Shown here: piece after piece, positions 1-35,539 of the stretch
Layout of the letters: each line of letters opens with the position of its first letter
Numbering within the stretch: the stretch's first letter is position 1
Source of the DNA: Flavobacteriaceae bacterium
GTDB taxonomy: Bacteria > Bacteroidota > Bacteroidia > Flavobacteriales > Flavobacteriaceae
Assembly (NCBI GenBank): GCA_002719315.1
Contig: PBHD01000012.1
Location: 60,444-100,749, forward strand
Direction: 5' to 3'
Length of the DNA: 40,306 bases
The notes under the pieces: model-generated
The model's input: the letters and a program-made list of their open reading frames with translations, nothing else
Database searches by the model: none
What the model was told of the DNA's origin: nothing
Program-made: the position numbers and the translations under genes

Positions 1-21
1 AAAGATAAATTTGACCTTCAT
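1..21 (-). CDS. possible start of next oxidase-cluster gene (partial)
   Basis: An ATG on the minus strand at 21-19 overlaps the TGA stop of the preceding 70-residue gene in an ATGA arrangement, as expected for a translationally coupled next gene. Only seven codons fit before the window edge (M-K-V-K-F-I-F), so no function can be read. The call rests only on the overlap and on the tight packing of this operon. Confidence 0.3.
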
Positions 22-230
22 TTTTTGAATATACTGTAGACTTTCCATCCTACAAAAACTAATAGTAAATATGGTATAGACATTAAAAATAAAATTCCAT
101 TATTTATGCCCTTAGCTGTTTCTTGTGCCTCACTTGAGTTTAATACAGCTCTACACATTGAGCATTGGGCAAATGCAATATCAGCCGATAATATTAAAAA
201 AATTAAAAAAACAGATATATACTTATACAT
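18..230 (-). CDS. small CxxC membrane protein of the oxidase maturation cluster
   Basis: This 70-residue protein has an N-terminal signal sequence ending near A20-Q22, then a C-S-M-C motif at about residues 23-26 in the context CSMCRA, and one C-terminal membrane helix (about 46-66) with a short basic tail. The two cysteines would lie on the periplasmic side, next to the membrane. It overlaps the end of the DUF420/CtaM-like gene by 8 bp, so it is probably co-translated with it. I recall similar small CxMCRA proteins beside DUF420 genes in other flavobacteria, but know of no assigned function. The position suggests a role in copper, heme or thiol handling during oxidase assembly; that is inference. 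Confidence 0.8.
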   Translation of the reverse strand: MYKYISVFLIFLILSADIAFAQCSMCRAVLNSSEAQETAKGINNGILFLMSIPYLLLVFVGWKVYSIFKK

Positions 231-747
231 AATACGGAGAAATCATTACATAAACTATTACTCCAGTTATAGCTATATATAACCATATCGGAAAAGTAAT
301 TTTAGCAATTTTTTTATGCTGAACAAACATTTTTGTGATGGCTCTAACATATGTTACTAAGACCATTGGAATTATAAAAATTGAAAGTATAATATGTGAT
401 ATTAGGATAAAATAATAGAAATATTTTATATTCCCTGAACCTCCAAAAGGAGTTGGATCAGAAGTCATGTGGTATGCTACATACATAACTAAAAAAACAA
501 CTGAAAGAAAAATTGAAATTTTCATCAACCGTTCATGTAAAATTAATTTCTTGTTAATAATAGCCCAATAAGCAATAATTAACAATAATGCTGTTACACC
601 ATTTATACTTGCATAAATTGGTGGAAGAAAATCAAGTGGTTCTACATTTGGAATACGAACCAAGAAAAGAAGAGCTACAGCTATAGGTATTGCAATTGAA
701 AGTATCCAAATGCCTTTTTTATATTTAAGTTCATGCTGTTTACTCAT
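223..747 (-). CDS. DUF420 family membrane protein, CtaM-like oxidase maturation factor
   Basis: This 174-residue polytopic membrane protein has about five hydrophobic helices and histidines at helix ends (HERLM near residue 71, YHM near 92, SH near 117). This layout fits DUF420, the family of Staphylococcus aureus CtaM, which is needed to make active heme-A oxidase. It lies 7 bp after the SCO gene and overlaps the next small gene, so it belongs to the downstream part of the oxidase cluster. The ATG at 747-745 is the natural start. The role in heme-copper oxidase maturation comes from the family and the neighbours; its exact biochemical activity is not established. Confidence 0.85.
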   Translation of the reverse strand: MSKQHELKYKKGIWILSIAIPIAVALLFLVRIPNVEPLDFLPPIYASINGVTALLLIIAYWAIINKKLILHERLMKISIFLSVVFLVMYVAYHMTSDPTPFGGSGNIKYFYYFILISHIILSIFIIPMVLVTYVRAITKMFVQHKKIAKITFPIWLYIAITGVIVYVMISPYYV

Positions 748-754
748 TTATAAT

Positions 755-1450
755 TTATTCTTTTAATAATTTACTTATATCTTCAATTATCATATCAGTT
801 CCTTGAGTTTCAAGATCTTGTTCATCAATACCCAAATAATAAACTATCGGATTTCCAAACTTATCAACTCTAGATCTTATATATCCTTTTTTATCAATTA
901 AAGCAAAATAGCCCTGATGTTCAAACCCTCCAGCTACATCCGGATTTACTGATGCAAAAATATTAAATCCTTTATTTGCTAGAGAATAAATATCGCTTTT
1001 TTTACCAGTTAAAAAATGCCAATTATTTGAAAAAACTTCATAACTCTCTGCGTACGACTTTAAAACATGTGGTTTGTCATTTTCAGGATCAATTGTGAAA
1101 GAAGCTATTCCAAAATCATCTCTTTTACCAAATTCATTTTCAATTCGCTTCATATTTTTATTCATGATTGGGCAAATACTAGGACATCTTGTGAAAAAGA
1201 ATTCAGCTACATAAATTTTATTTTTAAAGTCCTCATTTGTGATCATTAAACTGTCTTGATTATAAAATAAAAAATCTGGGACCTTTCTTGGTTCATTATT
1301 TATTTTTATATAGGAAAGAGGAGTCGAAATTGATGCTCTATTATTTTCAACAATCTGACCGTTTTTAATACGATTAATTAAATTGGGAACAGTTATAATT
1401 GCAAAAATTATTACAATTATAATTACTCCCAAATACTTTACCTTTGACAT
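755..1450 (-). CDS. SCO1/SenC family copper chaperone
   Basis: SCO proteins deliver copper to, or reduce, the CuA centre of cytochrome oxidase subunit II. This 231-residue protein has one N-terminal membrane anchor (about 5-23) and a periplasmic thioredoxin-like domain. The copper-binding CxxxC is present as C89-P-S-I-C93, and the distal histidine as H178 in the FEHQG segment just before the FALIDKKG strand. All three metal ligands are therefore intact. It is 4 bp downstream of the Cys-less SCO-like gene and just upstream of the DUF420 gene, and the CuA-bearing coxB is encoded in the same window. The ATG is at 1450-1448. Confidence 0.93.
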   Translation of the reverse strand: MSKVKYLGVIIIVIIFAIITVPNLINRIKNGQIVENNRASISTPLSYIKINNEPRKVPDFLFYNQDSLMITNEDFKNKIYVAEFFFTRCPSICPIMNKNMKRIENEFGKRDDFGIASFTIDPENDKPHVLKSYAESYEVFSNNWHFLTGKKSDIYSLANKGFNIFASVNPDVAGGFEHQGYFALIDKKGYIRSRVDKFGNPIVYYLGIDEQDLETQGTDMIIEDISKLLKE

Positions 1451-1454
1451 TTAT

Positions 1455-2117
1455 TTAATTTCTTTCCATTTTATTATATCGCTTTAATGCCAATCTATAT
1501 TCTGCTAAAATAACTTTAACATCATCAATCATCTTCTTATTAATTTCAGCAACAGATCTAGCATCAAATCCATATAGTACACCTATATCCTCATCATCAT
1601 TTCTACCTCTTAACTTTTTTTCTTTATCAATAATGAAAATATAAGGTGAACCTAGATTTTTTTCAAGATTTAAAGGTATTTTTAAACTTTTAAAGTGTTC
1701 TAAAATACTTTCTTTTGATCCCATTAAAAAATTCCATTTTTTAAGATCTGTCCCTGCACCTTCTCTTAATTCTTCTTTTAATAATTCTATTTTACTCTCA
1801 TTGTTCTCTTGCATTATTATAACAAATTGAAAATCATTAAACTGATAGAATCTTTTATAAATTTTTTCATTTAAATTTAAAGCCTCTGCTTTCTTAAAAT
1901 CCAAATTATCTCCCCAATACCCTAAGATTGTTATCTTATCTTCTAATAAAACTTTTCTTTTTTCAAAACTTTCAAACATATCTAACTCAAGAATATTTTC
2001 ACTCAAAATGGGAAGTTTTGCAAAATTATTTTTTCCAGAAGCAAAAAAAAGATAAACCACAATAGGAAAAATAAACAAAACTCCTAAAACAATTTTTTTT
2101 TTGATTTCAGAGTTCAT
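1455..2117 (-). CDS. SCO-like/thioredoxin-fold membrane-anchored protein without cysteines
   Basis: This 220-residue protein has an N-terminal anchor (about 9-25), then a soluble domain that follows the outline of a SCO/thioredoxin fold. An ITILGYWGD strand stands where SCO carries its CxxxC, and a YIFIIDKEKKLRGR strand matches the FALIDKKGYIRSR strand of the SCO protein encoded next door. There is no cysteine anywhere in the protein, and the distal histidine is absent, so it cannot bind copper in the SCO manner. It lies between the subunit-IV gene and the real SCO gene, tightly spaced. I infer a diverged SCO paralog with a structural or assembly role; an unrelated thioredoxin-like protein is the alternative. 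Confidence 0.7.
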   Translation of the reverse strand: MNSEIKKKIVLGVLFIFPIVVYLFFASGKNNFAKLPILSENILELDMFESFEKRKVLLEDKITILGYWGDNLDFKKAEALNLNEKIYKRFYQFNDFQFVIIMQENNESKIELLKEELREGAGTDLKKWNFLMGSKESILEHFKSLKIPLNLEKNLGSPYIFIIDKEKKLRGRNDDEDIGVLYGFDARSVAEINKKMIDDVKVILAEYRLALKRYNKMERN

Positions 2118-2150
2118 TTTTAAAAAATATATACTAAACTTTTTTATTAA

Positions 2151-2531
2151 TTAAAAATTCCAACTTTGGAATCCAGCCTGCATTATATCATAAATATAAT
2201 CTGCTTCTAGTATTAATATAAATGCTAGGTAAGGTATTAGAATTAATAGAGGTAATACAATAGAATTGACTAGCCCACTTGTTTCGTCTCTTAGATGCAT
2301 AAAGTCCCAAGCAATGTAATATGCCTTAACTAAGGTAAGGATAACAAAAATCCAATTCAAGATTTTCATTTGTAAAAAGCTTTCGAGAAGAAAAGCAGGT
2401 TTTAAAATACCTAATCCAACTTCAATAATTGTAACAATTGAAAGAAAAATTAAAACACCCCAAATTTTTTGTTCATTAGATTTAAATTTTAATAATCCTC
2501 TAAAAATTTCCAGTTTATGTTCAGCTCCCAT
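2151..2531 (-). CDS. cytochrome c oxidase subunit IV family protein
   Basis: This 126-residue protein has three membrane helices (about 26-43, 54-72 and 89-112), the layout of the bacterial CyoD/CtaF-like small subunit IV. The motif K-A-Y-Y-I-A-W-D-F-M-H-L at the end of the second helix is typical of the family. It is 15 bp downstream of the longer subunit-III gene, which is the usual order. It probably stabilises the oxidase core and has no cofactor. Starts at ATG 2531-2529. Confidence 0.88.
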   Translation of the reverse strand: MGAEHKLEIFRGLLKFKSNEQKIWGVLIFLSIVTIIEVGLGILKPAFLLESFLQMKILNWIFVILTLVKAYYIAWDFMHLRDETSGLVNSIVLPLLILIPYLAFILILEADYIYDIMQAGFQSWNF

Positions 2532-2546
2532 ATTATAAAATATAAT

Positions 2547-3530
2547 TTATACCAAATAAAAAAATGTAAAAACAAATACCCATACCAAATCTACAAAGTG
2601 CCAATATAATCCAACTTTTTCAACCATTTCATAATGACCTCTTCGTTCATAAGTTCCTATTAGAATATTAAAAAAAATAATGATATTAATAACAACCCCA
2701 GAAAAAACGTGAAACCCGTGAAATCCCGTAATGAAGAAAAAAAAGTTCGCAAATAGTCTATTTCCATATTCATTCCTAATTAAATTAGCTCCTTCAACAA
2801 CTATCTGAGCTTGTTCAAGTATATTCAATGACTCTTCCCTAGACAATATTATTTTTTGCCCATTATCATCTAAATACTCTGTTCTTATCAAAAGATTAGA
2901 ATTTGATTTAAATCCTTCTTTTACTTCCAAAAGACTAACTGTTGGCAAAGAACTTTCACTAAAAAACCAAATACCTTTGTTCTTTACATGAGTGGATCTA
3001 TCGGTTGGAATACTTTTTGAAAAATCACGAATAGATGCTCTTTTACCAGTATCACTGTTAACAAATTGAAGTATTTGACCACCTCTAGTTTCCAAAGCAC
3101 CATACTCTCCTTTTATAAAATTTTTCCATTCCCAAGCTTGAGAGCCAACAAAAACAGCACCTCCAATTATTGTAAGTAACATATAAAATGCAACCTTGGA
3201 TTTATTCATATTATGACCCGCATCTACAGCTAAAACCATTGTGACAGATGAAAAAATTAAAATAAAAGTCATTAATGCTACATAATACATTGGGGCATCA
3301 ACACCATGCAAAAAAGGAAAGTGGGTAAAAACTTCATCTGCAATAGGCCATGAATTTATATTTTTGAACCTCGAAAAACCATATGAGACTAAAAAGCCTG
3401 TGAAAGTTAAAGCATCTGAAACAATGAAAAACCACATCATTATTTTTCCATAGCTTGCTTTAAAGGGTTTATTATCTCCTCCTGACCAAAGTTCTAATTC
3501 TTCATTTTCATTTACAGTAGATACTTTCAT
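2547..3530 (-). CDS. cytochrome c oxidase subunit III with a large soluble insertion
   Basis: This 327-residue protein belongs to the heme-copper oxidase subunit III family. The N-terminal helices (about 28-50, 80-102, 113-130) end with the AWEW motif. The C-terminal helices carry the TGFHGFHVFSG motif (about 268-278) and end with WHFVDLVWVFVF, both hallmarks of the family. Between residues about 140 and 260 sits a polar stretch of more than 100 residues with no membrane helix, making the protein much longer than the usual subunit III of about 200 residues. I believe insertions of this kind are usual in flavobacteria, but could not check. It follows the shorter paralog, 36 bp downstream. Confidence 0.92.
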   Translation of the reverse strand: MKVSTVNENEELELWSGGDNKPFKASYGKIMMWFFIVSDALTFTGFLVSYGFSRFKNINSWPIADEVFTHFPFLHGVDAPMYYVALMTFILIFSSVTMVLAVDAGHNMNKSKVAFYMLLTIIGGAVFVGSQAWEWKNFIKGEYGALETRGGQILQFVNSDTGKRASIRDFSKSIPTDRSTHVKNKGIWFFSESSLPTVSLLEVKEGFKSNSNLLIRTEYLDDNGQKIILSREESLNILEQAQIVVEGANLIRNEYGNRLFANFFFFITGFHGFHVFSGVVINIIIFFNILIGTYERRGHYEMVEKVGLYWHFVDLVWVFVFTFFYLV

Positions 3531-3566: not shown

Positions 3567-4145
3567 TTAACTGTAGAATGAAACGAATAAAAATAAATAT
3601 ATCCATAACAAATCAAGAAAGTGCCAAAAAGTTTCCGCAAGTTCAATTCCCAATGAATTTTCTTTTGAATATTTACCCATTGAGGTATTAATTAACAAAC
3701 CAATTACAACTATAATTCCGGCAAATAAATGAGCTAAATGAAGTAAAACAAGCACATATAAATACGATGTGTTTATTGAACTTTCAGGACCAGTAAAATA
3801 ATATCCTAAATCTATTACTTCAGCAAATCCTTTAAATTGAAAATAAGTAAAAAGAAAAGATAAAATAAGAGTTATTATCAGAAAATACTTTGTTAGATTC
3901 AACTTATTTTCTTGTAACATTTTTCTTGAATAATAAATAGAAAAACTACTCAAAATTATTATTGCGGTACTTATAGTAAATGAAAATGGTAGTTCAATTT
4001 GAGTAAGCCAATCAGCTCTTTTAGAGCTAACAATATAAGCACTTGATAATCCCGCAAAAGTCATACAAATACTTCCAATTCCAAACCAAAGCATCATTTT
4101 TTTTGCTTTAGCATTTTGTGTTTTTAATTTTTCTGTTGTTTCCAT
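3567..4145 (-). CDS. heme-copper oxidase subunit III family protein, short form
   Basis: This protein has five predicted helices and the family signatures HLAHLFAG and ETFWHFLDLLWIYLF at its C-terminus. I place the start at ATG 4145-4143 (METTEKL..., 192 residues) rather than the in-frame codon at 4169. The chosen ATG follows the ctaB stop by one base, whereas the upstream start would overlap ctaB and add eight unconserved-looking residues. It lacks the long insertion seen in the next gene. Two tandem subunit-III genes imply either two different subunits in one oxidase or a small accessory subunit. Confidence 0.9.
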   Translation of the reverse strand: METTEKLKTQNAKAKKMMLWFGIGSICMTFAGLSSAYIVSSKRADWLTQIELPFSFTISTAIIILSSFSIYYSRKMLQENKLNLTKYFLIITLILSFLFTYFQFKGFAEVIDLGYYFTGPESSINTSYLYVLVLLHLAHLFAGIIVVIGLLINTSMGKYSKENSLGIELAETFWHFLDLLWIYLFLFVSFYS

Positions 4146-4146
4146 T

Positions 4147-5046
4147 TTACAAATATCTATCAATAACAAAAACTACCTGTAATAAACTTATATATGCAAT
4201 ACTAGATAAGATGAGATTCTTCGCAGCTTTATCAGTTTTTAATTTCATTAAAGAAATAGAAAAATAAAGCATTACAATCCCTAATAAAGAAATAATAATT
4301 GCACCAGGTAATGAAAGAAATAAATTTCCTGAATAACTCGTAGCAGGTATTAAAGAAAATAAAATCATCCAAATAGTATAAAATACAATTTGAAAAGATG
4401 TTACTTGATCTTTTTTTCCAGATGGTAAAAGTTTGAATCCTGCTTTTTTATAATCCTCATGCATTAGCCAACCAATTGCCCAAAAATGAGGGAACTGCCA
4501 TATAAATTGAATTAAAAATAAAATCCCTGGTTCAATTCCAAATTTATTTGTAGCAGCAACCCAGCCAAGCATAAAGGGGATAGCTCCTGGAAATGCACCA
4601 ATAAAAACAGCTAGAGGAGTCTTTTTTTTAAGTGGTGTATAAATACATGTATATATAAAAACCGATAAAACAGAGAAAAAAACTGTTCTAAAATTAATCA
4701 TATACAAAAATCCTATTCCAAAAAACAAAAAACTGAAACCAAAAATTAATGCTGTTTTTTCTTTCATTCTTCCAGATGGCAAAGGTCTATTTTTAGTCCT
4801 TGACATCAACCCGTCTTCCTCTTTTTCAATCCACTGATTAAATATATTTGATGATGCTACCATAAAAAATCCACCTAAAAAAAGTAAAGTTAAACTTGTT
4901 AAATTTAAATTATCGGTAGCTAAAAAATACCCAGCAATCGAGGAAAAGACGACACTTATGGCTAAACGAAACTTTGTTAATACAAATAAATCATTAAGAA
5001 AGTTTTGAAAAGAATTTATACCAATTGATTGGGTTTGATGCATCAT
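4147..5046 (-). CDS. ctaB: protoheme IX farnesyltransferase (heme O synthase)
   Basis: CtaB adds a farnesyl chain to protoheme, giving heme O, the precursor of the heme A used by aa3 oxidases. This 299-residue UbiA-family membrane protein has about nine helices. The first polar motif is N70-x3-E74-x3-D78 followed by M-S-R-T-K-N-R-P-L, which matches the prenyl-diphosphate/Mg site. A second polar region, HEDYKKAGFKLLP, is also typical. There are two adjacent ATG codons (5046 and 5043). Heme A synthase (CtaA) is not in the window. The gene is directly upstream of the subunit-III genes and nearly touches the first. Confidence 0.95.
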   Translation of the reverse strand: MMHQTQSIGINSFQNFLNDLFVLTKFRLAISVVFSSIAGYFLATDNLNLTSLTLLFLGGFFMVASSNIFNQWIEKEEDGLMSRTKNRPLPSGRMKEKTALIFGFSFLFFGIGFLYMINFRTVFFSVLSVFIYTCIYTPLKKKTPLAVFIGAFPGAIPFMLGWVAATNKFGIEPGILFLIQFIWQFPHFWAIGWLMHEDYKKAGFKLLPSGKKDQVTSFQIVFYTIWMILFSLIPATSYSGNLFLSLPGAIIISLLGIVMLYFSISLMKLKTDKAAKNLILSSIAYISLLQVVFVIDRYL

Positions 5047-24464: not shown

Positions 24465-26255
24465 TTAATGCTGTAATTCTTCTTCACCTTTTTTAAGTGG
24501 AATATGCTGAGGGACGAAATCTTCTTTTTGTCCTGGTTTTGAATAATCGTATGCCCATCTGTGTACATGAGGAATTTTACCTTCCCAGTTTCCATGAATG
24601 TGCTTTATAGGAGCCGTCCATTCCAAAGTAGTAGACCTCCATGGGTTTTGCTCAGTCTTTTTACCATAATACATACTATGAATAAAATTATAAAGAAAAA
24701 CTAATTGTGCTAAACCAGTAATTAAAGCGAAAACTGTAATAGTAACATTAATATCTGCCAAATCATCAAAATATGGAAATGCTGTATTTGTATAATACCT
24801 TCTCGGTAAACCAGCCATTCCTATGAAGTGCATTGGGAAAAAGACGCCATAAGCACCAATAGCAGTAACCCAAAAATGAAAATATCCTAAATTTTTATTC
24901 ATCATTCTTCCAAACATTTTTGGAAACCAATGATAAACTCCAGCAAAAAGACCATATAATGCAGAAATCCCCATAACTAAATGAAAGTGTGCAACAACAA
25001 AATATGTATCATGAACATTAATATCTAATGCACTATCTCCTAAAATAATCCCTGTTAAACCTCCACTAATAAAAGTTGAAACTAAAGCTATCGAAAAAAG
25101 CATTGCTGGATTTAATTGTAAATTACCCTTCCATAAAGTAGTTATATAATTAAATGCTTTAACAGCTGAAGGAATAGCTATTAAAAGAGTAGTAAAAGTA
25201 AAAACTGATCCAAGAAACGGATTCATTCCGGAGATAAACATATGATGTCCCCAAACAATCGTTGAGAGAAATGCTATCGCAAGAATAGAAGCCACCATAG
25301 CTCTATAACCAAAAATTGGCTTCCTTGAATTAGTAGCAATGATCTCAGAAGTAATCCCAAGTGCTGGTAACAAAACTATATATACTTCTGGGTGTCCTAA
25401 AAACCAGAATAAATGTTCATATAAAACAGGAGACCCTCCCTGATAATGTAAAACTTCTCCTTGAATAAAAATATCTGAAAGAAAAAAAGATGTTCCAAAA
25501 CTTCTATCCATAACTAATAATAATGCAGCAGATAAAAGAACTGGAAATGAAACAACACCTATTACAGCAGTTATAAAAAATGCCCAAATTGTTAAAGGAA
25601 GCCTAGAAAAGGTCATACCCTTGGTTCTTAAGTTTATTACTGTCACAATATAATTTAATGATCCCAAAAGAGAAGATGCTATAAAAAATGTCATGGAAAC
25701 TAACCAAAGAGTCATTCCTAATCCTGCTCCTGGTTGAGCTTGAGGAATAGCGCTTAATGGTGGATAAACAGTCCATCCAGATGCAGCAGGTCCAGCCTCA
25801 ACAAAAAGTGAAGCTATCATTATTATACTTGAAATAAAAAATAACCAATACGCAATCATATTTAAAAGTCCTGTAGCCATATCACGAGCACCAATCTGAA
25901 GAGGTATCAACAAATTACTAAATGTTCCGCTTAAACCTGCTGTTAAAACAAAGAAAACCATAATTGTTCCGTGAATAGTAACTAAAGCTAAATAAACATT
26001 TGGATCCATCACTCCATCAGGAGCCCATTTACCAAGAAGGGCTTCAAAAATTCCAAAAGGTTGTTCTGGCCAAGCTAATTGGAGCCTAAATAATAATGAC
26101 ATTAATATTCCAATTATACCCATAAACAAGCCAGTAATCAAATATTGTTTAGCGATCATTTTATGATCCTGACTAAAAATATATTTAGTTATAAAAGTTT
26201 CTTTATGATGGTGTCCGTGATCTTCCTCGTGATTATTTTCTTGTGTTATTGACAT
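24465..26255 (-). CDS. coxA: cytochrome c oxidase subunit I (A1-type heme-copper oxidase)
   Basis: This catalytic subunit reduces O2 at the heme a3-CuB site and pumps protons. The 596-residue protein has all metal ligands: H95 and H425 for low-spin heme a, H423 for heme a3, and H288, H337 and H338 for CuB. Y292 in GHPEVY can form the His-Tyr link. E290 in the same motif marks an A1-type enzyme; D125 (D-channel entry) and K366 in IPSAVK (K-channel) are also present. The N-terminus is His-rich (residues 9-17). It closes the act-cox operon; subunits III and IV are encoded about 19 kb away. Confidence 0.98.
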   Translation of the reverse strand: MSITQENNHEEDHGHHHKETFITKYIFSQDHKMIAKQYLITGLFMGIIGILMSLLFRLQLAWPEQPFGIFEALLGKWAPDGVMDPNVYLALVTIHGTIMVFFVLTAGLSGTFSNLLIPLQIGARDMATGLLNMIAYWLFFISSIIMIASLFVEAGPAASGWTVYPPLSAIPQAQPGAGLGMTLWLVSMTFFIASSLLGSLNYIVTVINLRTKGMTFSRLPLTIWAFFITAVIGVVSFPVLLSAALLLVMDRSFGTSFFLSDIFIQGEVLHYQGGSPVLYEHLFWFLGHPEVYIVLLPALGITSEIIATNSRKPIFGYRAMVASILAIAFLSTIVWGHHMFISGMNPFLGSVFTFTTLLIAIPSAVKAFNYITTLWKGNLQLNPAMLFSIALVSTFISGGLTGIILGDSALDINVHDTYFVVAHFHLVMGISALYGLFAGVYHWFPKMFGRMMNKNLGYFHFWVTAIGAYGVFFPMHFIGMAGLPRRYYTNTAFPYFDDLADINVTITVFALITGLAQLVFLYNFIHSMYYGKKTEQNPWRSTTLEWTAPIKHIHGNWEGKIPHVHRWAYDYSKPGQKEDFVPQHIPLKKGEEELQH

Positions 26256-26274: not shown

Positions 26275-27339
26275 TTATTGAATAACTTCAGCAAATGTCT
26301 GCTGGTCATCTATCCATTTATTAAATTCGTCTTCTGTTTCTACAATTATTTTCATTTGCATATTATAATGAGAACCTCCGCATATCTTATTACACAATAA
26401 TACATAATCAAAAATATATGGCTCAAGAGGTTCATCTCCATTAGCAACTAACTCTTTACTGTTTTCTACTCTTATTTTATTTATTTTTTTAACCTTAGAA
26501 ATTATGTCTGGATTTTGTCTCATTTCTTCAGTAGTTGTAATAGGTTTAAATGCAAATTCAGTAATCATTCCTGGAACAACATTCATTTGAGCTCTAAAAT
26601 GAGGCATGAAAGCCGAATGTAAAACATCTTGAGATCTCATTTTAAAAATGACTTCTCTTCCAACTGGCAAGTGTAATTCTTGCACCACAATATCATCAAA
26701 TCCATTTGGATCTGTTGAATCAATACCAACTACATTTTTACCATCAAAATCTTGAAGAAATCTAATATTAGCATCCCCTAAAACACCATCTTCACCTGCA
26801 TATCTAGCTTTCCAATTAAACTGATAAGCATAAAGTTCAACTACTAAAGTATCATCTTTTTCCTCTATTGTCATTATATCTGTCCAGGTATATAAACCGA
26901 ATAAAATTAAAACTGCTAGAACAATTGCAGGAATAACTGTCCATATCATTTCTAGTCTATCATTATCCGCATAAAAAAATGCTTTTCTTGATTTATTTCC
27001 TCTGTATTTATATGAAAAATAATGTAAAGCTCCTTGAGTTATTGTTTGAACAAAAAATATAACCGCAAAAGAAATCCACATCAAATTATCATATGTACTT
27101 CCATGCTCGGATGCTGCATCTGGTAATAAAACATCTCCATATGCAAAAAAAGAATAAATAGTCAATGCATAAATGAAAATTAAAAAAGCAAACATCATTT
27201 TTCCATTAAAGTCGTTATCCTTGTCATCTGCAATTTGATTATTAGCTTTTTTAGTTTGAGACAATTCAAAAATCTTTGTTATCTGCCAAACTGAGATTGC
27301 AATTAAAATAAGAGCGGTAAATATGAAAAAATTAGTCAT
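26275..27339 (-). CDS. coxB: cytochrome c oxidase subunit II with CuA site
   Basis: Subunit II accepts electrons from cytochrome c through binuclear CuA. The 354-residue protein has extra N-terminal hydrophobic helices (about 3-21, 49-68 and 87-104) before the conserved second hairpin helix (131-150), then a cupredoxin domain. The CuA ligands are H241, C316, C320, H324 and M327 in C-N-K-I-C-G-G-S-H-Y-N-M. The residue between the cysteines that is usually glutamate (bovine E198) is lysine, K318. No heme-binding CxxCH is fused, so a separate cytochrome (probably ActE or the ActA monoheme domain) must donate electrons. It is 13 bp downstream of actF. Confidence 0.96.
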   Translation of the reverse strand: MTNFFIFTALILIAISVWQITKIFELSQTKKANNQIADDKDNDFNGKMMFAFLIFIYALTIYSFFAYGDVLLPDAASEHGSTYDNLMWISFAVIFFVQTITQGALHYFSYKYRGNKSRKAFFYADNDRLEMIWTVIPAIVLAVLILFGLYTWTDIMTIEEKDDTLVVELYAYQFNWKARYAGEDGVLGDANIRFLQDFDGKNVVGIDSTDPNGFDDIVVQELHLPVGREVIFKMRSQDVLHSAFMPHFRAQMNVVPGMITEFAFKPITTTEEMRQNPDIISKVKKINKIRVENSKELVANGDEPLEPYIFDYVLLCNKICGGSHYNMQMKIIVETEDEFNKWIDDQQTFAEVIQ

Positions 27340-27352
27340 CTAAAAATAAAAA

Positions 27353-28642
27353 TTAATAATGATATTGTTTACTTTCTTTAACAAACGGGTCTCCCTTTGC
27401 TAAAAGAGGAGCCTTTGTTAATTCGTTAAAAACTATATATACAAATAGCCCTAAGAAAAATAAAAATGAACCTATCTCACTTATCCCTATAAACCACTGA
27501 TCACCTACAGCAGAAGGCATAATCATATTAAAAACATCAATGTAATGGCCTAAAACTATAACAATTCCTGTCATTACTATTATATAATTAACCCTTTTGT
27601 AATCACTATTCATTAAAATGATTAAAGGAAAAATAAAGTTCATAACTAACATTCCAAAAAATGGGAGGTTATAATCCTCAATTCTTGTCATAAAATAGGT
27701 TACTTCTTCTGGAATATTTGCATACCATATAAGCATAAATTGAGAAAACCATAAATAAGTCCAAAAAATACTAATTGCAAACATAAATTTTCCAAGATCA
27801 TGAATGTGACTATCATTTACAAAGTCTAAATATCCATTATTTTTCAAATAAATAGTTATTAACGCAATAACTGTAATCCCTGTAACAAACATACTGGCAA
27901 ATACGTACCAACCAAATAATGTGCTAAACCAATGAGGATCAATTGACATTACCCAATCCCAAGACATTACTGACTCAGTTACGAAATAAAAAACTAAAAA
28001 TGCAGCAGAAATTTTAAAATTTTTCTTGTGATTTGATATATCATTTGATGGAGTGAGATCTTGTTTTAATGAAAATTTTCTTGAAAAATATCTATATAAT
28101 ACCCAACCTGAAAGAAAGAATATTGCTCTTGCAAAAAAGAAAGGTAAATTTAAGTAACCTGATTTATTTCTAATAATCTCGTCATGAGCTACAACTTCAG
28201 GATCCATCCATATAAATAGGTGATTAAAATGTAATCCTGACAAAACTAAAATAGCAATTACAATAATTCCTCCAGGAAGCAAATATGCTGTTATTCCTTC
28301 CATAACTCTGTAAAGAACAATAGACCATCCAGCTTGAGCTGCTCTTTGAATAGCATAAAAAGCTAATACTCCCAATGAAATCATCATGAAAAAGAAAGCT
28401 GAAACATACAATGCAGCCCAAGGTTTATTTTGTAATTTATGTAAAAGATGTTCTCCATGATTTGAATCTTTTTCATGTCCTTCATTGTGACTTACAGTTT
28501 CTCCATAGTGATCAGATGATGTCATTTCAATAGCCTCTTCAATTGTTGAAGGAGCAGACAAAAATCCATATGTAAGACCAAATAATCCTATAATCATGCA
28601 TGATATAGAAAAAATTTTAAGTCTTTTTGGAAAAGTATACAT
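27353..28642 (-). CDS. actF: alternative complex III membrane subunit ActF
   Basis: ActF is one of the two large quinone-side membrane subunits of alternative complex III and is related to ActC. The 429-residue protein has about ten hydrophobic helices; a His-rich periplasmic or loop segment (about 44-67) follows the first helix. It starts 5 bp after the actE stop. The M-S-W-D-W-V-M-S-I-D-P-H-W-F-S-T-L-F-G-W segment is a strong signature of this subunit. Confidence 0.95.
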   Translation of the reverse strand: MYTFPKRLKIFSISCMIIGLFGLTYGFLSAPSTIEEAIEMTSSDHYGETVSHNEGHEKDSNHGEHLLHKLQNKPWAALYVSAFFFMMISLGVLAFYAIQRAAQAGWSIVLYRVMEGITAYLLPGGIIVIAILVLSGLHFNHLFIWMDPEVVAHDEIIRNKSGYLNLPFFFARAIFFLSGWVLYRYFSRKFSLKQDLTPSNDISNHKKNFKISAAFLVFYFVTESVMSWDWVMSIDPHWFSTLFGWYVFASMFVTGITVIALITIYLKNNGYLDFVNDSHIHDLGKFMFAISIFWTYLWFSQFMLIWYANIPEEVTYFMTRIEDYNLPFFGMLVMNFIFPLIILMNSDYKRVNYIIVMTGIVIVLGHYIDVFNMIMPSAVGDQWFIGISEIGSFLFFLGLFVYIVFNELTKAPLLAKGDPFVKESKQYHY

Positions 28643-28647
28643 TATCT

Positions 28648-29196
28648 CTATTTTTTTAATTTATTTCTAAGTTCCATGACATGTTGTGATATTTGCCAAC
28701 GCTCTAATTCATTTACTTGTCCAGCATGAGATCCCATAGCATTTTTTCCATACATTAAAACATGATAAATACTTCCAGGAGTAATTTCTCTGTCAGCATA
28801 GCTTGGCACTCCTAAATAAACTTCACGCTTCATTAAAATTCCTTGACCATCTCCTTTTGAACCATGGCAAACTGAACAATATATTTCATAAAGTTTTTTA
28901 CCATTCTCTATGTTTTCTTTACTAACTACAATTGGTGACATTAAATTTAATTTTGCTTCTTCATAGCCTTCATTTGTATCTTCATATTCGTAGGGTTTCC
29001 ATCCTCTTGAAATTGTTCCTTCTACTGGTAATTGGGCTTCAATACCATTAGAAAATGCATCACTTTCAGAATATGTATCATAACCAACAGCATCATACAT
29101 TTGAGGAAAAAATTGATAATTTGGTTTGGATGAATCAAAACATGATGCCGTCATCAATAATAAAATAAATAGATATATGTTTTTTACATTTTTCAT
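28648..29196 (-). CDS. actE: alternative complex III monoheme cytochrome c lipoprotein ActE
   Basis: I set the start at ATG 29196-29194 (M-K-N-V-K-N), giving 182 residues and a proper lipoprotein signal ending T-A-S-C19, instead of an upstream codon that would overlap actD. One c-type heme is attached at C107-S-V-C-H111, with M154 in the MGSH segment as probable sixth ligand. ActE sits on the periplasmic side of the complex and is a likely electron exit towards the oxidase. It starts about one base after the actD stop. Confidence 0.95.
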   Translation of the reverse strand: MKNVKNIYLFILLLMTASCFDSSKPNYQFFPQMYDAVGYDTYSESDAFSNGIEAQLPVEGTISRGWKPYEYEDTNEGYEEAKLNLMSPIVVSKENIENGKKLYEIYCSVCHGSKGDGQGILMKREVYLGVPSYADREITPGSIYHVLMYGKNAMGSHAGQVNELERWQISQHVMELRNKLKK

Positions 29197-29197
29197 T

Positions 29198-29725
29198 TTA
29201 TTCTGGCTTTTCAACAATTTTAATATCAATAGCTCCCGTTTTCTTAATTAGAGCTTTCAATTCTTTTTCATTTTTCCCTACTTCAATTTCAATTAAAAAC
29301 TTATCATCAGTAGTAGAAGGATAAGGATTCTCAGCTTTCTTAAATGGCCATAATTTACTCCTTAAATAAAACGTAATAACCATTAAATGAGCAGCAAAAA
29401 AAACTGTCATCTCAAACATGATTGGAACAAAAGCAGGCATATTAGAAACATATGAAAAACTAGGTTTACCTCCGATATTTTGAGGCCAATCTACTATCAT
29501 CATATGATTCATCATTAAAATTGCAACAGTAAGACCAACACATCCATATATAAAAGACATTATAGCGATTCTTGTACCCTCTAAACCTAAAGCTTTATCT
29601 AATCCATGAACAGGAAAAGGTGTATAAACCTCATCAATGTGATGTTTTTTTGAAACGATTTCTTTTACTGCACTTAGAAGCACATCATCATCGTCATAAA
29701 AAGCATGAATTACTTTATCACTCAT
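29198..29725 (-). CDS. actD: alternative complex III subunit ActD (DUF3341)
   Basis: This 175-residue DUF3341 protein has two membrane helices (about 56-77 and 98-119) and soluble ends. The N-terminal H-A-F-Y-D-D-D-D and H-I-D-E-V-Y-T-P-F-P-V-H-G segments are typical of ActD. It binds no cofactor and helps hold the membrane arm together. It overlaps the actC stop by 8 bp, so translation is coupled. Confidence 0.95.
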   Translation of the reverse strand: MSDKVIHAFYDDDDVLLSAVKEIVSKKHHIDEVYTPFPVHGLDKALGLEGTRIAIMSFIYGCVGLTVAILMMNHMMIVDWPQNIGGKPSFSYVSNMPAFVPIMFEMTVFFAAHLMVITFYLRSKLWPFKKAENPYPSTTDDKFLIEIEVGKNEKELKALIKKTGAIDIKIVEKPE

Positions 29726-31106
29726 TTTTATCTCTTAATTTTTTATAATTATCCGCAGATGATTTTAAAATGGTTTTTACCTCAGCTTGAGCAATAACAG
29801 GAAATGTCCTGGCATAAAGCAAAAATAATGAAAAGAAAAAACCAACTGTTCCAATAAATATTCCTATATCAATAAAGGTTGGAGAGAACATAGTCCAAGA
29901 TGATGGTAAATAATCTCTATGGAGTGATGTCACAATAATAACAAAACGTTCAAACCACATTCCAATATTAACAACTATAGAAATAATAAATGAAAAAATT
30001 ATACTTGTCCTTAATTTTTTAAACCACATAAGTTGGGGAGAAAAAACATTACAAGTCATCATTGACCAATAAGCCCACCAATAAGGTCCAGTAGCTCTAT
30101 TTAGAAATGCATATTGTTCATATTCAACTCCAGAGTACCATGCAATAAATAATTCTGTTATATAGGCTACACCAACAATTGATCCGGTTATCATAATTAC
30201 AATATTCATAAGTTCAATATGCTGAACAGTAATATAATCCTCTAAATGGCAAACTTTTCTCATTATAATTAAAAGAGTATTAACCATAGCAAAACCAGAG
30301 AATATAGCACCAGCAACAAAATAAGGCGGAAAAATTGTAGTATGCCAACCAGGTATAACTGAAGTAGCAAAGTCAAAAGATACTATAGTATGAACTGATA
30401 ACACTAAAGGTGTTGCTAAACCAGCTAAGACTAAAGAAACTTCTTCAAATCTTTGCCAATCTTTTGCTCTTCCACTCCACCCAAAGCTTACTAGACTATA
30501 TATTTTCTTTTGAAAAGGAAGAACTGCTCTATCTCTAATCATAGCAAAATCAGGTAAAAGTCCTGTCCACCAAAATACTAATGAAACTGTTAAGTATGTA
30601 GAAATTGCAAAAACATCCCATAAAAGTGGTGAATTAAAATTAACCCATAATGACCCGAAAGCATTTGGAATTGGCAACATCCAATATCCAAGCCATGGTC
30701 TACCCATGTGAATTAAAGGGAATAAACCAGCTTGAATTACCGAGAAAATAGTCATAGCTTCAGCAGATCTATTTATACCCATTCTCCATTTTTGCCTGAA
30801 CAAAAGAAGTACTGCGGAAATTAATGTTCCCGCATGACCAATACCAACCCACCAAACAAAGTTGGTTATGTCCCAAGCCCAACCTACTGTTTTATTCAAA
30901 CCCCAAACTCCAATTCCAGTAGAAATAGTATAAATTATACAACCAACACCCCATAAAAAAGCTGAAAGCGAAATACCAAAAACAATCCACCATTGATTAT
31001 TTGCCTTCCCTTCGATTGGAGCAGCAATATCAACAGAAACATCATGATAGGACTTATTGCCAGTAACAAGAGGTTTTCTTATTGGAGCTTCATAATGTGA
31101 TGCCAT
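29718..31106 (-). CDS. actC: alternative complex III membrane subunit ActC (NrfD family)
   Basis: This 462-residue NrfD/PsrC-type protein has about ten helices. It includes the quinone-site regions around W-W-V-G-I-G-H-A-G-T-L and P-L-I-H-M-G-R-P-W. In alternative complex III, ActC with the ActB iron-sulfur domain forms the quinol oxidation site and possibly couples to proton movement. It lies between actB (15 bp) and actD (8-bp overlap). Confidence 0.97.
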   Translation of the reverse strand: MASHYEAPIRKPLVTGNKSYHDVSVDIAAPIEGKANNQWWIVFGISLSAFLWGVGCIIYTISTGIGVWGLNKTVGWAWDITNFVWWVGIGHAGTLISAVLLLFRQKWRMGINRSAEAMTIFSVIQAGLFPLIHMGRPWLGYWMLPIPNAFGSLWVNFNSPLLWDVFAISTYLTVSLVFWWTGLLPDFAMIRDRAVLPFQKKIYSLVSFGWSGRAKDWQRFEEVSLVLAGLATPLVLSVHTIVSFDFATSVIPGWHTTIFPPYFVAGAIFSGFAMVNTLLIIMRKVCHLEDYITVQHIELMNIVIMITGSIVGVAYITELFIAWYSGVEYEQYAFLNRATGPYWWAYWSMMTCNVFSPQLMWFKKLRTSIIFSFIISIVVNIGMWFERFVIIVTSLHRDYLPSSWTMFSPTFIDIGIFIGTVGFFFSLFLLYARTFPVIAQAEVKTILKSSADNYKKLRDKNE

Positions 31107-31121
31107 ATTGTTTATATAATT

Positions 31122-34100
31122 TTAGTTTTCATCAATATTTCTAATTTTTGTTTGATACATAACATTTGGTTTTGTACCAACATATTCCAACAAATGATAC
31201 ATTCTATCATTTTTCTTTAATTCAGAGACTTTACTTTCTTTATCATTAATGTCTCCAAAAACCATTGCTCCAGTACTACATGCATCGGAACAAGCACATG
31301 ACCATTCATCAGCTCTAACTTCTCTTCCCTCTAATTTTGCATCTAAAATAGTTTTCTGCGTCATTTGAATACAAAAAGAACATTTTTCCATTACTCCCCT
31401 AGATCTGACTACAACATCTGGATTAATAACCATTCTTCCTAAATCATCATTCATATGATAATCAAACTCATCATTTCCATTATATAAAAACCAATTAAAT
31501 CTTCTAACCTTATATGGACAGTTATTAGCACAGTATCTTGTTCCCACACATCTATTGTAAGCCATATGATTCTGACCTTGTCTTCCATGTGAAGTTGCAG
31601 CAACTGGACAAACAGTTTCGCAAGGTGCATGATTACAGTGTTGACACATTACTGGTTGAAAAGCTACTTGAGGATTTTCTGAAGCTTTTTCCATATCTCC
31701 AAGAACTGTTAAAGAGTCTACTAAGCCTGAAATTTCATCTTTAGTATTATTATCTTTTTCAAAAGTATTTTCTGATGAATAATATCTATCAATTCGAAGC
31801 CAATGCATATCTCTTGATTTTCTGACCTCTCTTTTTCCTACAACAGGAACATTATTTTCTGCATGACAGGCTATTACACATGCACCACAACCAGTACATG
31901 AATTAAGATCAATAGATAAATTAAAATGATGTCCTATTGATCTATCAAACTCTTCATACATATCTACTCCCGGAGAGCTTACCAAAGTTTCTATGTGATT
32001 TTTGGATACCATAACAGGAGGATTCCAGTATTTTTTTTCTTTAGTATTGAAAACTTCTAGTGTAGTTTCTTTAAGAATGTCCCCTCTTCCCATTAAAGTA
32101 TTATGAAGTTGAACACATGCAAATTCATGCATTTCGTCAATAGGATCAATCTTAATTTCTTGAACTCTATTAAATTCATTATAAAAATTAAATGCATTAA
32201 TACCAACTTTCATTTCATCTTTTACTCCAATAGTTTTTCCATAACCAAAAGCAAGCCCAACTGTCCCTTTTGCTTGACCAGGTTGAATAATTATAGGTAC
32301 TTTTATCGTTTTCTCTCCAACCGATATATTTGCATAACTTCCATTTAAGGCACCATTTGCTGTATTCTCATTTTTTAATCCAATATTTTTAGCATCTGCC
32401 ATAGATATTGTCAAATAATTATCCCATGTTACTCTTGTTATAGGGTCAGGAAATTCTTGAAGCCATGGATTATTAGATTGCTGACCATCTCCTATTCCAA
32501 TTTTAGGATATAGAATAAGTGAAAGTCCACTATCTTTAAAGTTTGAAAATTTTGAAATATCTAAAGAATAGGGATCTTGATTTCTTTTTAAATTCAAAGA
32601 GATTTTCTTAGACAAATAACCATCATGAAGAGCCTTATTCCATGAACTTCCCTCTAAAACCTCTTCATTCCAATATTGCTTTATGTACTCATTATAGCTT
32701 ATATTATTATTAAGAAGCTTTAATAAAACATCCTGAAATTGATTAGTATCAAAAAGAGGGCGAATAGTTGGTTGAGTTAATGCGTAGTGTCCATACTTTA
32801 ATTGGTAGTCTCCCCAAGATTCTAATTGATGTGGTGTAGCGGCTATATATTGAGATACAGATGAAGTTTCATCTTCTTTTGACGAAAATACTAAAGAGAA
32901 TTTCAAAGATCTAATTAGATCTCTAAACTCTAAACCATTTGGAAGAGAGTAAACAGGATTGAGCCCGGAAATTATTAATCCCTTAACTTCACCAGATTTC
33001 ATTTGGTCAACCAATTTTTTTACATCATCTTTTTTTCCCTTTCTGATAAATCTTGGAGTATTTACATTAAATGCCTTGCTCTTTAAAATTGCATTTATAG
33101 CAAGTATAAGACTTTGACAATAATCATCATCTATTCCTGAAACAACAACCGAATTAGACGTTGTTTTTTTTATTTTATTTAATATTTGATCTAACAACTT
33201 TTGGTGTTCATTAGATAAAGAAATTGAAGTTTTTTTATTTGCTAGATTAGAATATAACTTAAATAAAATATTTTTTATTTCAGATGGTCTTAACGCTACT
33301 CTTTTATCAGCATTTGCTCCAGATAAACTCATATTAGACTCTAATTGAATATGCCAAGACATAGAATATTTTTTACTATTATTCTTTTTATTTGGAACTC
33401 TACCTTTAGAATATCCGGCCTCATATCCCCCTCCTTGCCAATCACCCAATATATCTGCATCAAAAGAAACTATATTACTTGCTTTTGAAAAATCATAATC
33501 TGGTAAAGCTCTAATACCATACTCATTTTCAAAAGCATTAAGTGCCGAGTCTGATGAAATAGGATCATAAACTACATGACTAATATTAGGATATAAATTC
33601 AAAAACTCTGAAATAATTTTTTCAGTTGATGGACTTGCTAACGAACTAGTCATAAGAACTACTTTTTCTCCATCTTCACTTAATTTTTTTAGAGTTTTAG
33701 TTGTTTGATCATAAAGTTCTCTCCAACTAATATCTTTACCCATATGTTTTGGACCTTGAATTCTTAGAGAATCATACATAGACAAAACTGATGCATTAAC
33801 TCTAGCATTTGCACAACCTAAATATGGTGTTTCTTTGTTATTTTGAACCTTTATTGGCCTACCTTCCCTAGTTTTAATTAACACACTAGCAAAATCATAT
33901 CCATCAGCAATAGTAGTTGCATAATAGTTTGCAATTCCCGGGATGATTTTCTCAGGCTGAATAACATATGGAACGGATTTAATGACTGGTCCCTCACAAG
34001 CTGCAAGAGTAGCTGCTGCTGTACTATATCCAAGATATTTTAAAAAATCTCTTCTTGTGTGATTACTATCAGATTGATCCAGATTATCATTCTGATTTAC

Positions 34101-34202
34101 AGGTAATTTTGAAACAAATTCATTCTCATGAATATTCTTAATATCCTGATTATTTGAATCTAGTTGATCAATATTTTTCCAATAAATCTTTTTTGTCTTC
34201 AT
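31122..34202 (-). CDS. actB: alternative complex III iron-sulfur subunit ActB
   Basis: ActB joins a molybdopterin-oxidoreductase-like domain, without the cofactor in characterised complexes, to an iron-sulfur domain carrying one [3Fe-4S] and three [4Fe-4S] clusters. The protein has a twin-arginine motif T-R-R-D-F-L-K near residue 50 and a following LAAC lipobox-like site. The last third has C-T-G-C-G-A-C, then C-Q-H-C-N-H-A-P-C, then C-V-G-T-R-Y-C-A-N-N-C-P and C-S-C-A-C-S-D-A-C. I place the start at ATG 34202 (M-K-T-K-K-I-Y-W-K), just after the actA stop; the earlier ATG at 34220 would overlap actA. Confidence 0.96.
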   Translation of the reverse strand: MKTKKIYWKNIDQLDSNNQDIKNIHENEFVSKLPVNQNDNLDQSDSNHTRRDFLKYLGYSTAAATLAACEGPVIKSVPYVIQPEKIIPGIANYYATTIADGYDFASVLIKTREGRPIKVQNNKETPYLGCANARVNASVLSMYDSLRIQGPKHMGKDISWRELYDQTTKTLKKLSEDGEKVVLMTSSLASPSTEKIISEFLNLYPNISHVVYDPISSDSALNAFENEYGIRALPDYDFSKASNIVSFDADILGDWQGGGYEAGYSKGRVPNKKNNSKKYSMSWHIQLESNMSLSGANADKRVALRPSEIKNILFKLYSNLANKKTSISLSNEHQKLLDQILNKIKKTTSNSVVVSGIDDDYCQSLILAINAILKSKAFNVNTPRFIRKGKKDDVKKLVDQMKSGEVKGLIISGLNPVYSLPNGLEFRDLIRSLKFSLVFSSKEDETSSVSQYIAATPHQLESWGDYQLKYGHYALTQPTIRPLFDTNQFQDVLLKLLNNNISYNEYIKQYWNEEVLEGSSWNKALHDGYLSKKISLNLKRNQDPYSLDISKFSNFKDSGLSLILYPKIGIGDGQQSNNPWLQEFPDPITRVTWDNYLTISMADAKNIGLKNENTANGALNGSYANISVGEKTIKVPIIIQPGQAKGTVGLAFGYGKTIGVKDEMKVGINAFNFYNEFNRVQEIKIDPIDEMHEFACVQLHNTLMGRGDILKETTLEVFNTKEKKYWNPPVMVSKNHIETLVSSPGVDMYEEFDRSIGHHFNLSIDLNSCTGCGACVIACHAENNVPVVGKREVRKSRDMHWLRIDRYYSSENTFEKDNNTKDEISGLVDSLTVLGDMEKASENPQVAFQPVMCQHCNHAPCETVCPVAATSHGRQGQNHMAYNRCVGTRYCANNCPYKVRRFNWFLYNGNDEFDYHMNDDLGRMVINPDVVVRSRGVMEKCSFCIQMTQKTILDAKLEGREVRADEWSCACSDACSTGAMVFGDINDKESKVSELKKNDRMYHLLEYVGTKPNVMYQTKIRNIDEN

Positions 34203-34207
34203 AAAAT

Positions 34208-35539
34208 TTAATAATGACATTTACCACATTCCAAGCCTCCCATTTGAGCTACTGTTAATTTTTCAACACCATACTTTTTTGAGAGCTCTTCATGAATTTT
34301 TGTGTAATATTCATTAGACTCAACCTTTATATTTGATTCTCTATGACAATCAATACACCATCCCATTGTCAGAGGAGAATATTGATACATAATCTCCATC
34401 TCTTCAACCGGACCATGGCATGTTTGACATTGAATTTCTCCAACTTCAACATGCTGTGCATGATTAAAATAAACATGGCTTGGTAAATTATGAATTCTTA
34501 CCCATTTTACAGGTTGTGTTTGACCTGTATATTTTTGATTTTCTTCATCCCAACCAACTGCAGCATACAACTTTTTAATTTCTTTAGTATAAAAATCTTT
34601 TGTATAACCATTTTCTAGATCCTCCTCACCATTATATTCAGCAATATTCATGTGACAATTCATACAAACATTCAATGAGGGAATTCCTGAATGTTTTGAA
34701 ACTCTGGCTGAAGAATGACAATATTTACAATCTATTTTATTTACTCCAGAGTGGATTTTGTGAGAATAATGAATTGGTTGAACGGGCATATAACCCTGAT
34801 CAACACCTATTTGCATCATATAATCATATAAAAGATAAGTACTGCTTAATAAAAATAATATAACACTTGTAAAAACTAAAAATTGATTTTGAACAAAAGC
34901 TTTCCATATTGGAGTTCTTTTTTCTTTGGGTTCAGGAGTTATTTCTACACCACTAGCTTTAGCTATTTTAATTAAAGTTCTTTGAACTAAAAATAACATT
35001 ACAACCAAAATGGTAAGCACAAGAGTTAGAGCAGCTAAAATCAGATTGTTTGCAAAATCATTTGCTTGAGTATTATTAACTGCAATTGCAGAAGCAGCTG
35101 GAGCAACTGAAAGTGGAGGAGTATAATCTGTGTAAGCTAAAATTTTATCAATATCATCATTAGAAAGTTGAGGAAAATTATTCATTACAGATCTATTGTA
35201 TTCCTCATAAACTGCAACTGCTTGAGGGTCTCCAGCTTTGATCATTGCACTACTGTTTTTGATCCAACTGTATAACCATTCCCTATCATACTTTTCAGAA
35301 ACACCTTTTAAAGCGGGACCAATACCTCTTTTATTTAATTTATGACATGCAGCACAATTTGCATTAAACAATTTTTTTCCCTCTTTAACTATTGGGTCGT
35401 CTTGACTGTGCAAACTTTGAAATGAAAAAAGGAGTATAAAACTTAGGGTGAGAAAAAATCTCGAGAATGATTCTCGTCTAAATTTTGTTGAGAAATTTCT
35501 AAATGGTTGCAAAAAATAATTTTTCAAAATCCTATGCAA
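34208..35539 (-). CDS. actA: alternative complex III multiheme cytochrome c ActA
   Basis: ActA carries the heme wire of alternative complex III. This protein has six CxxCH motifs, at about residues 62, 271, 292, 371, 395 and 438 (counting from the TTG). The first belongs to an N-terminal class-I monoheme domain (about 50-140). Two membrane helices follow (165-186 and 218-240), then the pentaheme domain, whose last heme site sits two residues from the C-terminus. No ATG occurs before the signal-like helix (28-45). The start is a TTG at 35539 or a TTG just downstream (35527), so the exact N-terminus is uncertain. It is the first gene of the act-cox operon. Confidence 0.94.
   Translation of the reverse strand: MHRILKNYFLQPFRNFSTKFRRESFSRFFLTLSFILLFSFQSLHSQDDPIVKEGKKLFNANCAACHKLNKRGIGPALKGVSEKYDREWLYSWIKNSSAMIKAGDPQAVAVYEEYNRSVMNNFPQLSNDDIDKILAYTDYTPPLSVAPAASAIAVNNTQANDFANNLILAALTLVLTILVVMLFLVQRTLIKIAKASGVEITPEPKEKRTPIWKAFVQNQFLVFTSVILFLLSSTYLLYDYMMQIGVDQGYMPVQPIHYSHKIHSGVNKIDCKYCHSSARVSKHSGIPSLNVCMNCHMNIAEYNGEEDLENGYTKDFYTKEIKKLYAAVGWDEENQKYTGQTQPVKWVRIHNLPSHVYFNHAQHVEVGEIQCQTCHGPVEEMEIMYQYSPLTMGWCIDCHRESNIKVESNEYYTKIHEELSKKYGVEKLTVAQMGGLECGKCHY

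Follow-up and report, generated by a model that had tools for sequence, protein, structure and literature searches.

Genes at the Locus

The analysed window is a stretch of 40,306 nucleotides from a bacterium of the family Flavobacteriaceae, whose named relatives include Maribacter and Saonia, and all the genes described here lie on its minus strand. In order of transcription, a cytochrome oxidase cluster begins with the heme O synthase gene ctaB (4147..5046; NCBIfam TIGR01473, 5.2e-74, above the cut-off), continues with two COX3-family subunits (3567..4169, Pfam COX3 2.3e-10; and 2547..3530, 327 aa, Pfam COX3 3.4e-12) and subunit IV (2151..2531; Pfam COX4_pro 2.5e-12), and then reaches the gene under study, referred to here as X (1455..2117). 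X encodes a 220-aa protein with an N-terminal helix resembling a membrane anchor. It is followed by an intact SCO gene (755..1450), by a DUF420 membrane protein of the CtaM family (223..747; Pfam DUF420 1.2e-41), and by a 70-aa protein (18..230). The Pfam match of the 327-aa COX3-family subunit falls in two stretches, split by what appears by eye to be a long inserted segment.

The SCO neighbour of X has both elements of the metal site, a CPSIC motif and a histidine in the motif GGFEH. It matches Pfam SCO1-SenC (1.9e-27), has 1on4, 1xzo and 4hde as PDB relatives, and is likely a copper chaperone for the CuA centre. It is one of two genes of the SCO family (PF02630) in this genome; the second is found on the same contig at a distance of about 97 kb. 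The 70-aa protein has a signal-peptide-like start, one membrane-like segment and a CSMC motif, and gave no match in a Pfam search; it may be a small partner, for copper or redox chemistry, in oxidase assembly. At 62 of 105 loci, DUF420 is followed downstream by a similar reading frame with a C-x-M-C motif.

The same window holds an alternative complex III (ACIII) operon, after which come the genes for oxidase subunits II and I. The six ACIII genes, ActA to ActF, occupy 27353..35539: ActA (34208-35539) matches 6btm_A with an E-value of 8.8e-175, ActB (31122-34220) has an iron-sulphur domain, ActC (29718-31106) an NrfD domain and ActE (28648-29229) a cytochrome c domain, ActD (29198-29725) matches Pfam ActD (2.2e-58), and ActF (27353-28642) is named from gene order. 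The letters B, C and E are likewise those that we take to apply from gene order. Subunit II (26275..27339) has PDB relatives, matches COX2_TM (2.6e-8) and carries a CuA-like sequence, CNKICGGSHYNM; its COX2 periplasmic domain scores 21.2 bits, just under the cut-off of 22. It is the presumed client. Subunit I (24465..26255) matches Pfam COX1 at 6.5e-139. Since both clusters lie in one window, X belongs to one of two clusters that jointly specify an ACIII-aa3 respiratory system.

A SCO-Fold Protein without Copper Ligands

X contains no cysteine, and its single histidine lies off the SCO ligand column. The cysteine status of X was read in three sets of genes. CxxxC is missing from all of 41 X-like reading frames, of which 21 are cysteine-free and 20 carry between one and three scattered cysteines. 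In 42 more loci found by searching (three of them genomes counted before), X has at most one cysteine and again lacks CxxxC, a motif that the adjacent SCO retains in all 42. A wider set of 92 X loci, some of which represent one genome twice, also has no CxxxC in X. The ligand histidine is substituted in every X row of a 161-row alignment; the 12 X rows from the window's family and from families f10 and f12 have G, S, A, Y or F in its place. What X proteins share is the loss of CxxxC and of the histidine; a complete lack of cysteine is not common to them. At one locus (L045), the X frame is shortened and ends at 149 aa.

Standard searches do not recognise the protein. X alone gave nothing above cut-off against Pfam and NCBIfam and nothing useful in a PDB sequence search, and the families matched by 33 X proteins in Pfam at E 0.1 did not include PF02630 (SCO1-SenC). 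Matches of X to InPase (E 0.048) and NADase (E 0.41) were dismissed as chance. When X is compared with its SCO neighbour by pairwise BLAST, the match is marginal (E 0.009, 26% over 88 aa). Family profiles decide the matter: profiles built from 33 X and 30 SCO proteins give an alignment of 200 columns with an E-value of 2.9e-20, and an earlier profile set gave 1.7e-20 across 199 columns. By these profiles, the resemblance of X to SCO exceeds chance.

An AlphaFold2 model of X (mean pLDDT 92.8, pTM 0.83) predicts a SCO-type thioredoxin fold. With this model, Foldseek placed ResA (1su9) first at 7.2e-7 and SCO (4hde) next at 1.4e-6. In a second look at the structural matches (VIA), the Bacillus SCO 4hde ranked first (Z 15.4, rmsd 2.6, 154 residues aligned) and the Bacillus SCO 1xzo second (Z 14.4), followed by a non-SCO structure (Z 13.2). 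The N-terminal anchor corresponds to a predicted helix at residues 3-27 that is hydrophobic by reading, and the adjacent SCO also starts with a hydrophobic segment of this kind. The first-pass annotation had described a cysteine-free gene lacking the SCO histidine beside an intact SCO, and the reading frames and the alignment agree. It had also seen a shared membrane anchor and sequence likeness between the two genes, which the anchors and the profile comparison bear out, and the thioredoxin/SCO fold that it supposed is the one predicted by the model and its best matches to 4hde and 1xzo.

X is under purifying selection. Its dN/dS is 0.04-0.13 in the seven of nine relative pairs that could be computed, compared with 0.015-0.13 in the seven computable pairs for SCO, with synonymous sites near saturation in several pairs. 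The loop that replaces CxxxC holds 1.92 bits of information, the lowest among 12 regions of X, and the most is held by strand 1, at 3.21, and the C-terminal helix, at 3.20. The values for SCO are 3.48 bits in the CxxxC segment and 2.75 in the C-terminal helix. Ten columns are invariant in 33 X sequences (P18, L35, G69, Y87, F96, D164, R170, G171, R172 and D199), and none of the positions that are invariant or nearly so is a cysteine, histidine or methionine. By the information and invariant-residue patterns, constraint has gone from the metal loop and has been kept on a core strand, an RGR hairpin and the C-terminal helix.

Distribution of X

A profile search of 199 genera in the window's family found X in 194: the match is strong (E 4.3e-49 or better) in 193 and weak in one. 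The expectation that the same gene would recur in related oxidase clusters was thus confirmed. A SCO with an intact motif is the neighbour of X at 91 of 92 loci, a set in which some genomes appear twice. An earlier count of X in 31 of 40 relatives, including the window's own genome, was reduced to 26, since the matches in G030, G031, G034, G037 and G038 are intact SCO proteins. At the locus L010 (genome G017), X (1492-2148, minus strand) lies outside the oxidase cluster, beside a 491-aa transporter-like reading frame, and the 3.65-kb stretch around it contains no SCO.

Six genera of the family have no strong X (G024, G567, G588, G628, G576 and G181). A search with the COX2 model gave no match in the first three, a 759-aa frame only in G628, frames of 230 and 771 aa in G576, and a 328-aa COX2 in G181. 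Nitrous oxide reductase carries a COX2-type domain, with which the 759-aa frame may be compared. The COX2 model is insensitive here, as the window's own subunit II falls under its cut-off, and an apparent absence may be a miss; these absences are therefore merely suggestive, and the link between X and a CuA oxidase is weaker than it appears. In G181, a divergent cysteine-free SCO-like reading frame (L134, 2290-2997, minus strand) lies between COX4 and SCO. It scores 56 bits for S and 46 bits for X, and is possibly an independent replacement of X.

Outside the family, X is strong in families f10 and f12 and divergent in f13. In a sample of 198 genomes from the phylum, strong X was confined to the window's family. 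Three families of the same order (f7, f8 and f14) and many others have a single intact SCO in the corresponding slot and no X.

Recurrent Erosion of the SCO between COX4 and DUF420

The position of X, between COX4 and DUF420, can be followed in more distant clusters with DUF420 as a marker, which was found in 103 of 198 genomes sampled from the phylum and in 270 of 296 from the class. Of the 180 loci read (19, 80, 80 and L134), the slot could be defined at 107, and these 107 are all outside the window's family; at the other 73 it was not definable on the sequence stretch. Of these 107 clusters, 65 contain a single intact SCO with both cysteines and the histidine (C, C, H), 32 a single eroded protein, 7 a tandem pair, and 3 nothing. 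Eight of the 32 eroded singles were classed by position and by fold or tail, without clear full-length homology to SCO. In the tandem pairs, it is always the upstream, COX4-proximal copy that is eroded and the downstream copy that is intact (19 of 19 fully read: 7 outside the family and 12 from the family, f10, f12 and G181).

The erosion is graded. Some proteins have lost only the histidine, being CCY (L211, L326, L204 and L368), CCP (L290, L294, L295 and L322) or CCA (L356, L357 and L364), and beyond these the loss is total. Two of the CCY proteins, L204 and L368 of family f20, are upstream tandem copies that keep CPHQC and have tyrosine at the ligand histidine, an intermediate state. Intact and eroded proteins occur within one family in seven cases (f17, f18, f22, f23, f24, f57 and f104), and within one genus in two (g120, L179 vs L241; g424, L356 vs L320).

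The number of changes was counted on trees built after removal of the ligand columns. At a minimum, a quick 150-row tree, which omits 11 short or remote rows, requires nine changes, and a careful 90-row tree, which omits 71 of the 161 rows, requires six; supported branches force at least five in each. Parsimony changes alone do not separate loss from gain, and loss was assumed because the regain of CxxxC plus a histidine is implausible. On these trees, the same loss of the copper site appears to have arisen several times in related bacteria.

The eight singles classed in this way are strongly reduced. In family f19, all five slot proteins (L213, L215, L218, L232 and L238; 170-248 aa) are cysteine-free, gave nothing against Pfam and match the SCO profile more weakly (E 1.6e-6). 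An AlphaFold2 model of L213 from five sequences (pLDDT 82.6) is thioredoxin-like, with SCO structures tied with others among its matches. Three of these proteins (L213, L215 and L232) have a common C-terminal tail, DIVLKRE. Another three slot proteins (L194, L244 and L180) align with the SCO profile over 40 columns only.

Genomes with an eroded slot protein retain an intact SCO. Where the eroded protein stands alone in the slot, an intact C, C, H SCO was found elsewhere in all 32 genomes (14 and 18). Among genomes with an intact slot protein, a second SCO, counted by the criterion of full length, was found in 20 of 30 sampled from the 65. The difference gives a Fisher p of 2.8e-4, with relatedness ignored.

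Origin of X

The first-pass annotation had called X a cofactor-free SCO paralog in an oxidase cluster. The fold, the presence in nearly all genera of the family and the SCO beside it agree with this description; whether X is a paralog of its neighbour is less clear, as the trees separate the two and the AU test does not reject them as one clade. In the 150-row tree, X falls among slot proteins of other families and the adjacent SCO among SCO proteins from outside the slot. In the 90-row tree, a clade of X (12 rows, support 100/100) is apart from a clade of adjacent SCO proteins (11 rows, 95/99). Long branches make the placement of X unsafe, and a tree in which X is constrained to share a single clade with its SCO neighbour is worse by only 1.69 log units (AU p 0.43). 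The trees favour a history in which X would be the original operon SCO and its neighbour a newcomer that took over the chemistry. A local duplication as the source of X, compatible with the AU test, is uncertain. The stronger statement that X is necessarily the orthologue of the slot SCO, and no duplicate of its neighbour, was dropped in view of the same test.

Proposed Role of X

The role of SCO proteins in the assembly of CuA is debated; they may act as copper donors, as thiol reductants or in some other way. Their repeated loss of the metal site in related bacteria suggests that SCO proteins also have a copper-free job. We put at slightly better than even the chance that X is a member of the SCO family without a copper or redox site that has been kept for copper-independent protein binding in the biogenesis of the ACIII-linked aa3 oxidase. 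An inner-membrane anchor would hold X so that its SCO domain faces the periplasm, where X would dock on nascent oxidase subunits. Its likeliest partners would be subunit II, at the CuA domain, or the module of subunits III and IV, whose genes immediately precede X, and the conserved RGR hairpin and C-terminal helix would form the docking surface. X could then hold the subunits for an intact SCO, which would perform the copper or thiol chemistry.

The case for a copper-free role draws on homology, fold, near-universality, purifying selection, shifted conservation and recurrent erosion, as well as on the intact SCO found elsewhere in every genome with a lone eroded slot protein, the constant order of the tandem pairs and the keeping of X even where it is apart from SCO (L010). 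A docking role is weakened by the same locus, where X is outside the oxidase cluster, and by families such as f7, f8 and f14, which have one intact SCO and no X and show that clusters of this kind do not everywhere include a separate copper-free protein. A broader proposal, on which our judgement is evenly balanced, is that the operon SCO of the window's class (presumably Bacteroidia) has a second, copper-independent function, and that the metal site has been lost repeatedly where another SCO covers the chemistry, leaving a dedicated pseudo-chaperone that became fixed as X in the window's family.

Co-conservation with the oxidase would suit a structural subunit equally well. A permanent place for X in the aa3 oxidase or its ACIII supercomplex, with no part in assembly, is a serious alternative to which we give about one chance in four. 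The gene directly follows that for subunit IV and is near-universal in the family, ACIII and coxBA are in the same window, and conservation in X lies in the fold, hairpin and helix instead of the old metal site. Against it, the SCO proteins characterised so far are assembly factors, as a review of bacterial oxidase assembly presents them in the part drawn on here (PMC9145763). The PDB sequence set has no X-like chain, a weak point since the flavobacterial aa3 oxidase is apparently absent from the set: it includes the ActA of 6btm, and its nearest match to the window's subunit II is 2yev. This absence was accordingly dropped as evidence on the subunit question.

An improbable alternative takes its model from plants. 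The Arabidopsis protein HCC2 is a SCO homologue without the cysteines and the histidine, and its knockout has normal COX activity and raised UV-B sensitivity (PMC3971200). By analogy, this dispensability argues against an assembly role for X, which might instead be a stress-linked envelope modulator of the intact SCO, affecting its thiol or copper state; oxidase activity would then not depend on X. The close association of X with SCO at nearly every locus read speaks against this, as do the genera without strong X, four of six of which show no COX2 of ordinary size by the insensitive model; nothing would require a general stress factor to track the oxidase. Still less probable is that X binds some other cofactor (a heme, a lipid or a different metal) at residues that have nothing to do with the SCO site. 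Thioredoxin folds are versatile and the strict G69, Y87, F96, D164, R170, G171, R172 and D199 persist in X, but none of its invariant or nearly invariant residues is a cysteine, histidine or methionine, so a conserved soft-metal site is unlikely. The loss of the ligands that define the family and the 149-aa frame at L045 are what would be expected of a decaying remnant without function, a reading that the low dN/dS, the strong matches in 193 genera and the ten invariant columns make very improbable indeed.

Comparison with Known Systems

Titles and the first parts of abstracts in the open-licence literature yielded no paper on a ligand-free SCO in Bacteroidota. The review of bacterial oxidase assembly defines Sco by the motif CXXXCXnH and identifies CtaM as a DUF420 protein; words that start with "Bacteroidetes" or "Flavobacter" do not occur in its main text (PMC9145763). 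A copper survey of Bizionia argentinensis, in the part consulted, lists two SCO family proteins (PMC11213822), and the available part of the HCC2 paper states the view of SCO proteins as reductants (PMC3971200).

The analysis gives an identity to a protein that Pfam and NCBIfam leave unnamed and that is present in nearly all genera of a large family. Furthermore, the series from intact to histidine-less to ligand-free proteins in one operon position sets a copper-free function of SCO apart from the chemistry. Such a function thereby becomes testable in the genetically tractable Flavobacterium johnsoniae, in which bd oxidase is predicted to support growth when ACIII and aa3 are absent (PMC8552683).

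X shares a membrane anchor, a SCO-type thioredoxin domain and a place in an oxidase operon with the SCO/SenC chaperones (PF02630), such as human SCO1 and YpmQ (BsSco) of Bacillus subtilis. It differs from them in having neither CxxxC nor the ligand histidine, in falling under PF02630 detection and in having the metal loop as its least conserved region. CtaM/DUF420 is similar in being a protein of oxidase biogenesis whose gene (223-747) belongs to the cluster that contains X; however, DUF420 is an integral membrane protein of an unrelated family. The closest parallel in the loss of ligands is Arabidopsis HCC2, where both cysteines and the histidine are gone and the host retains an intact SCO, HCC1 in the plant. 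HCC2 is a mitochondrial, cysteine-rich plant protein that is not needed for COX activity, whereas X is bacterial and mostly encoded in an oxidase operon. A ligand-free SCO was therefore already known from plants, and what is new here is the recurrence of this erosion in the SCO of one operon slot.
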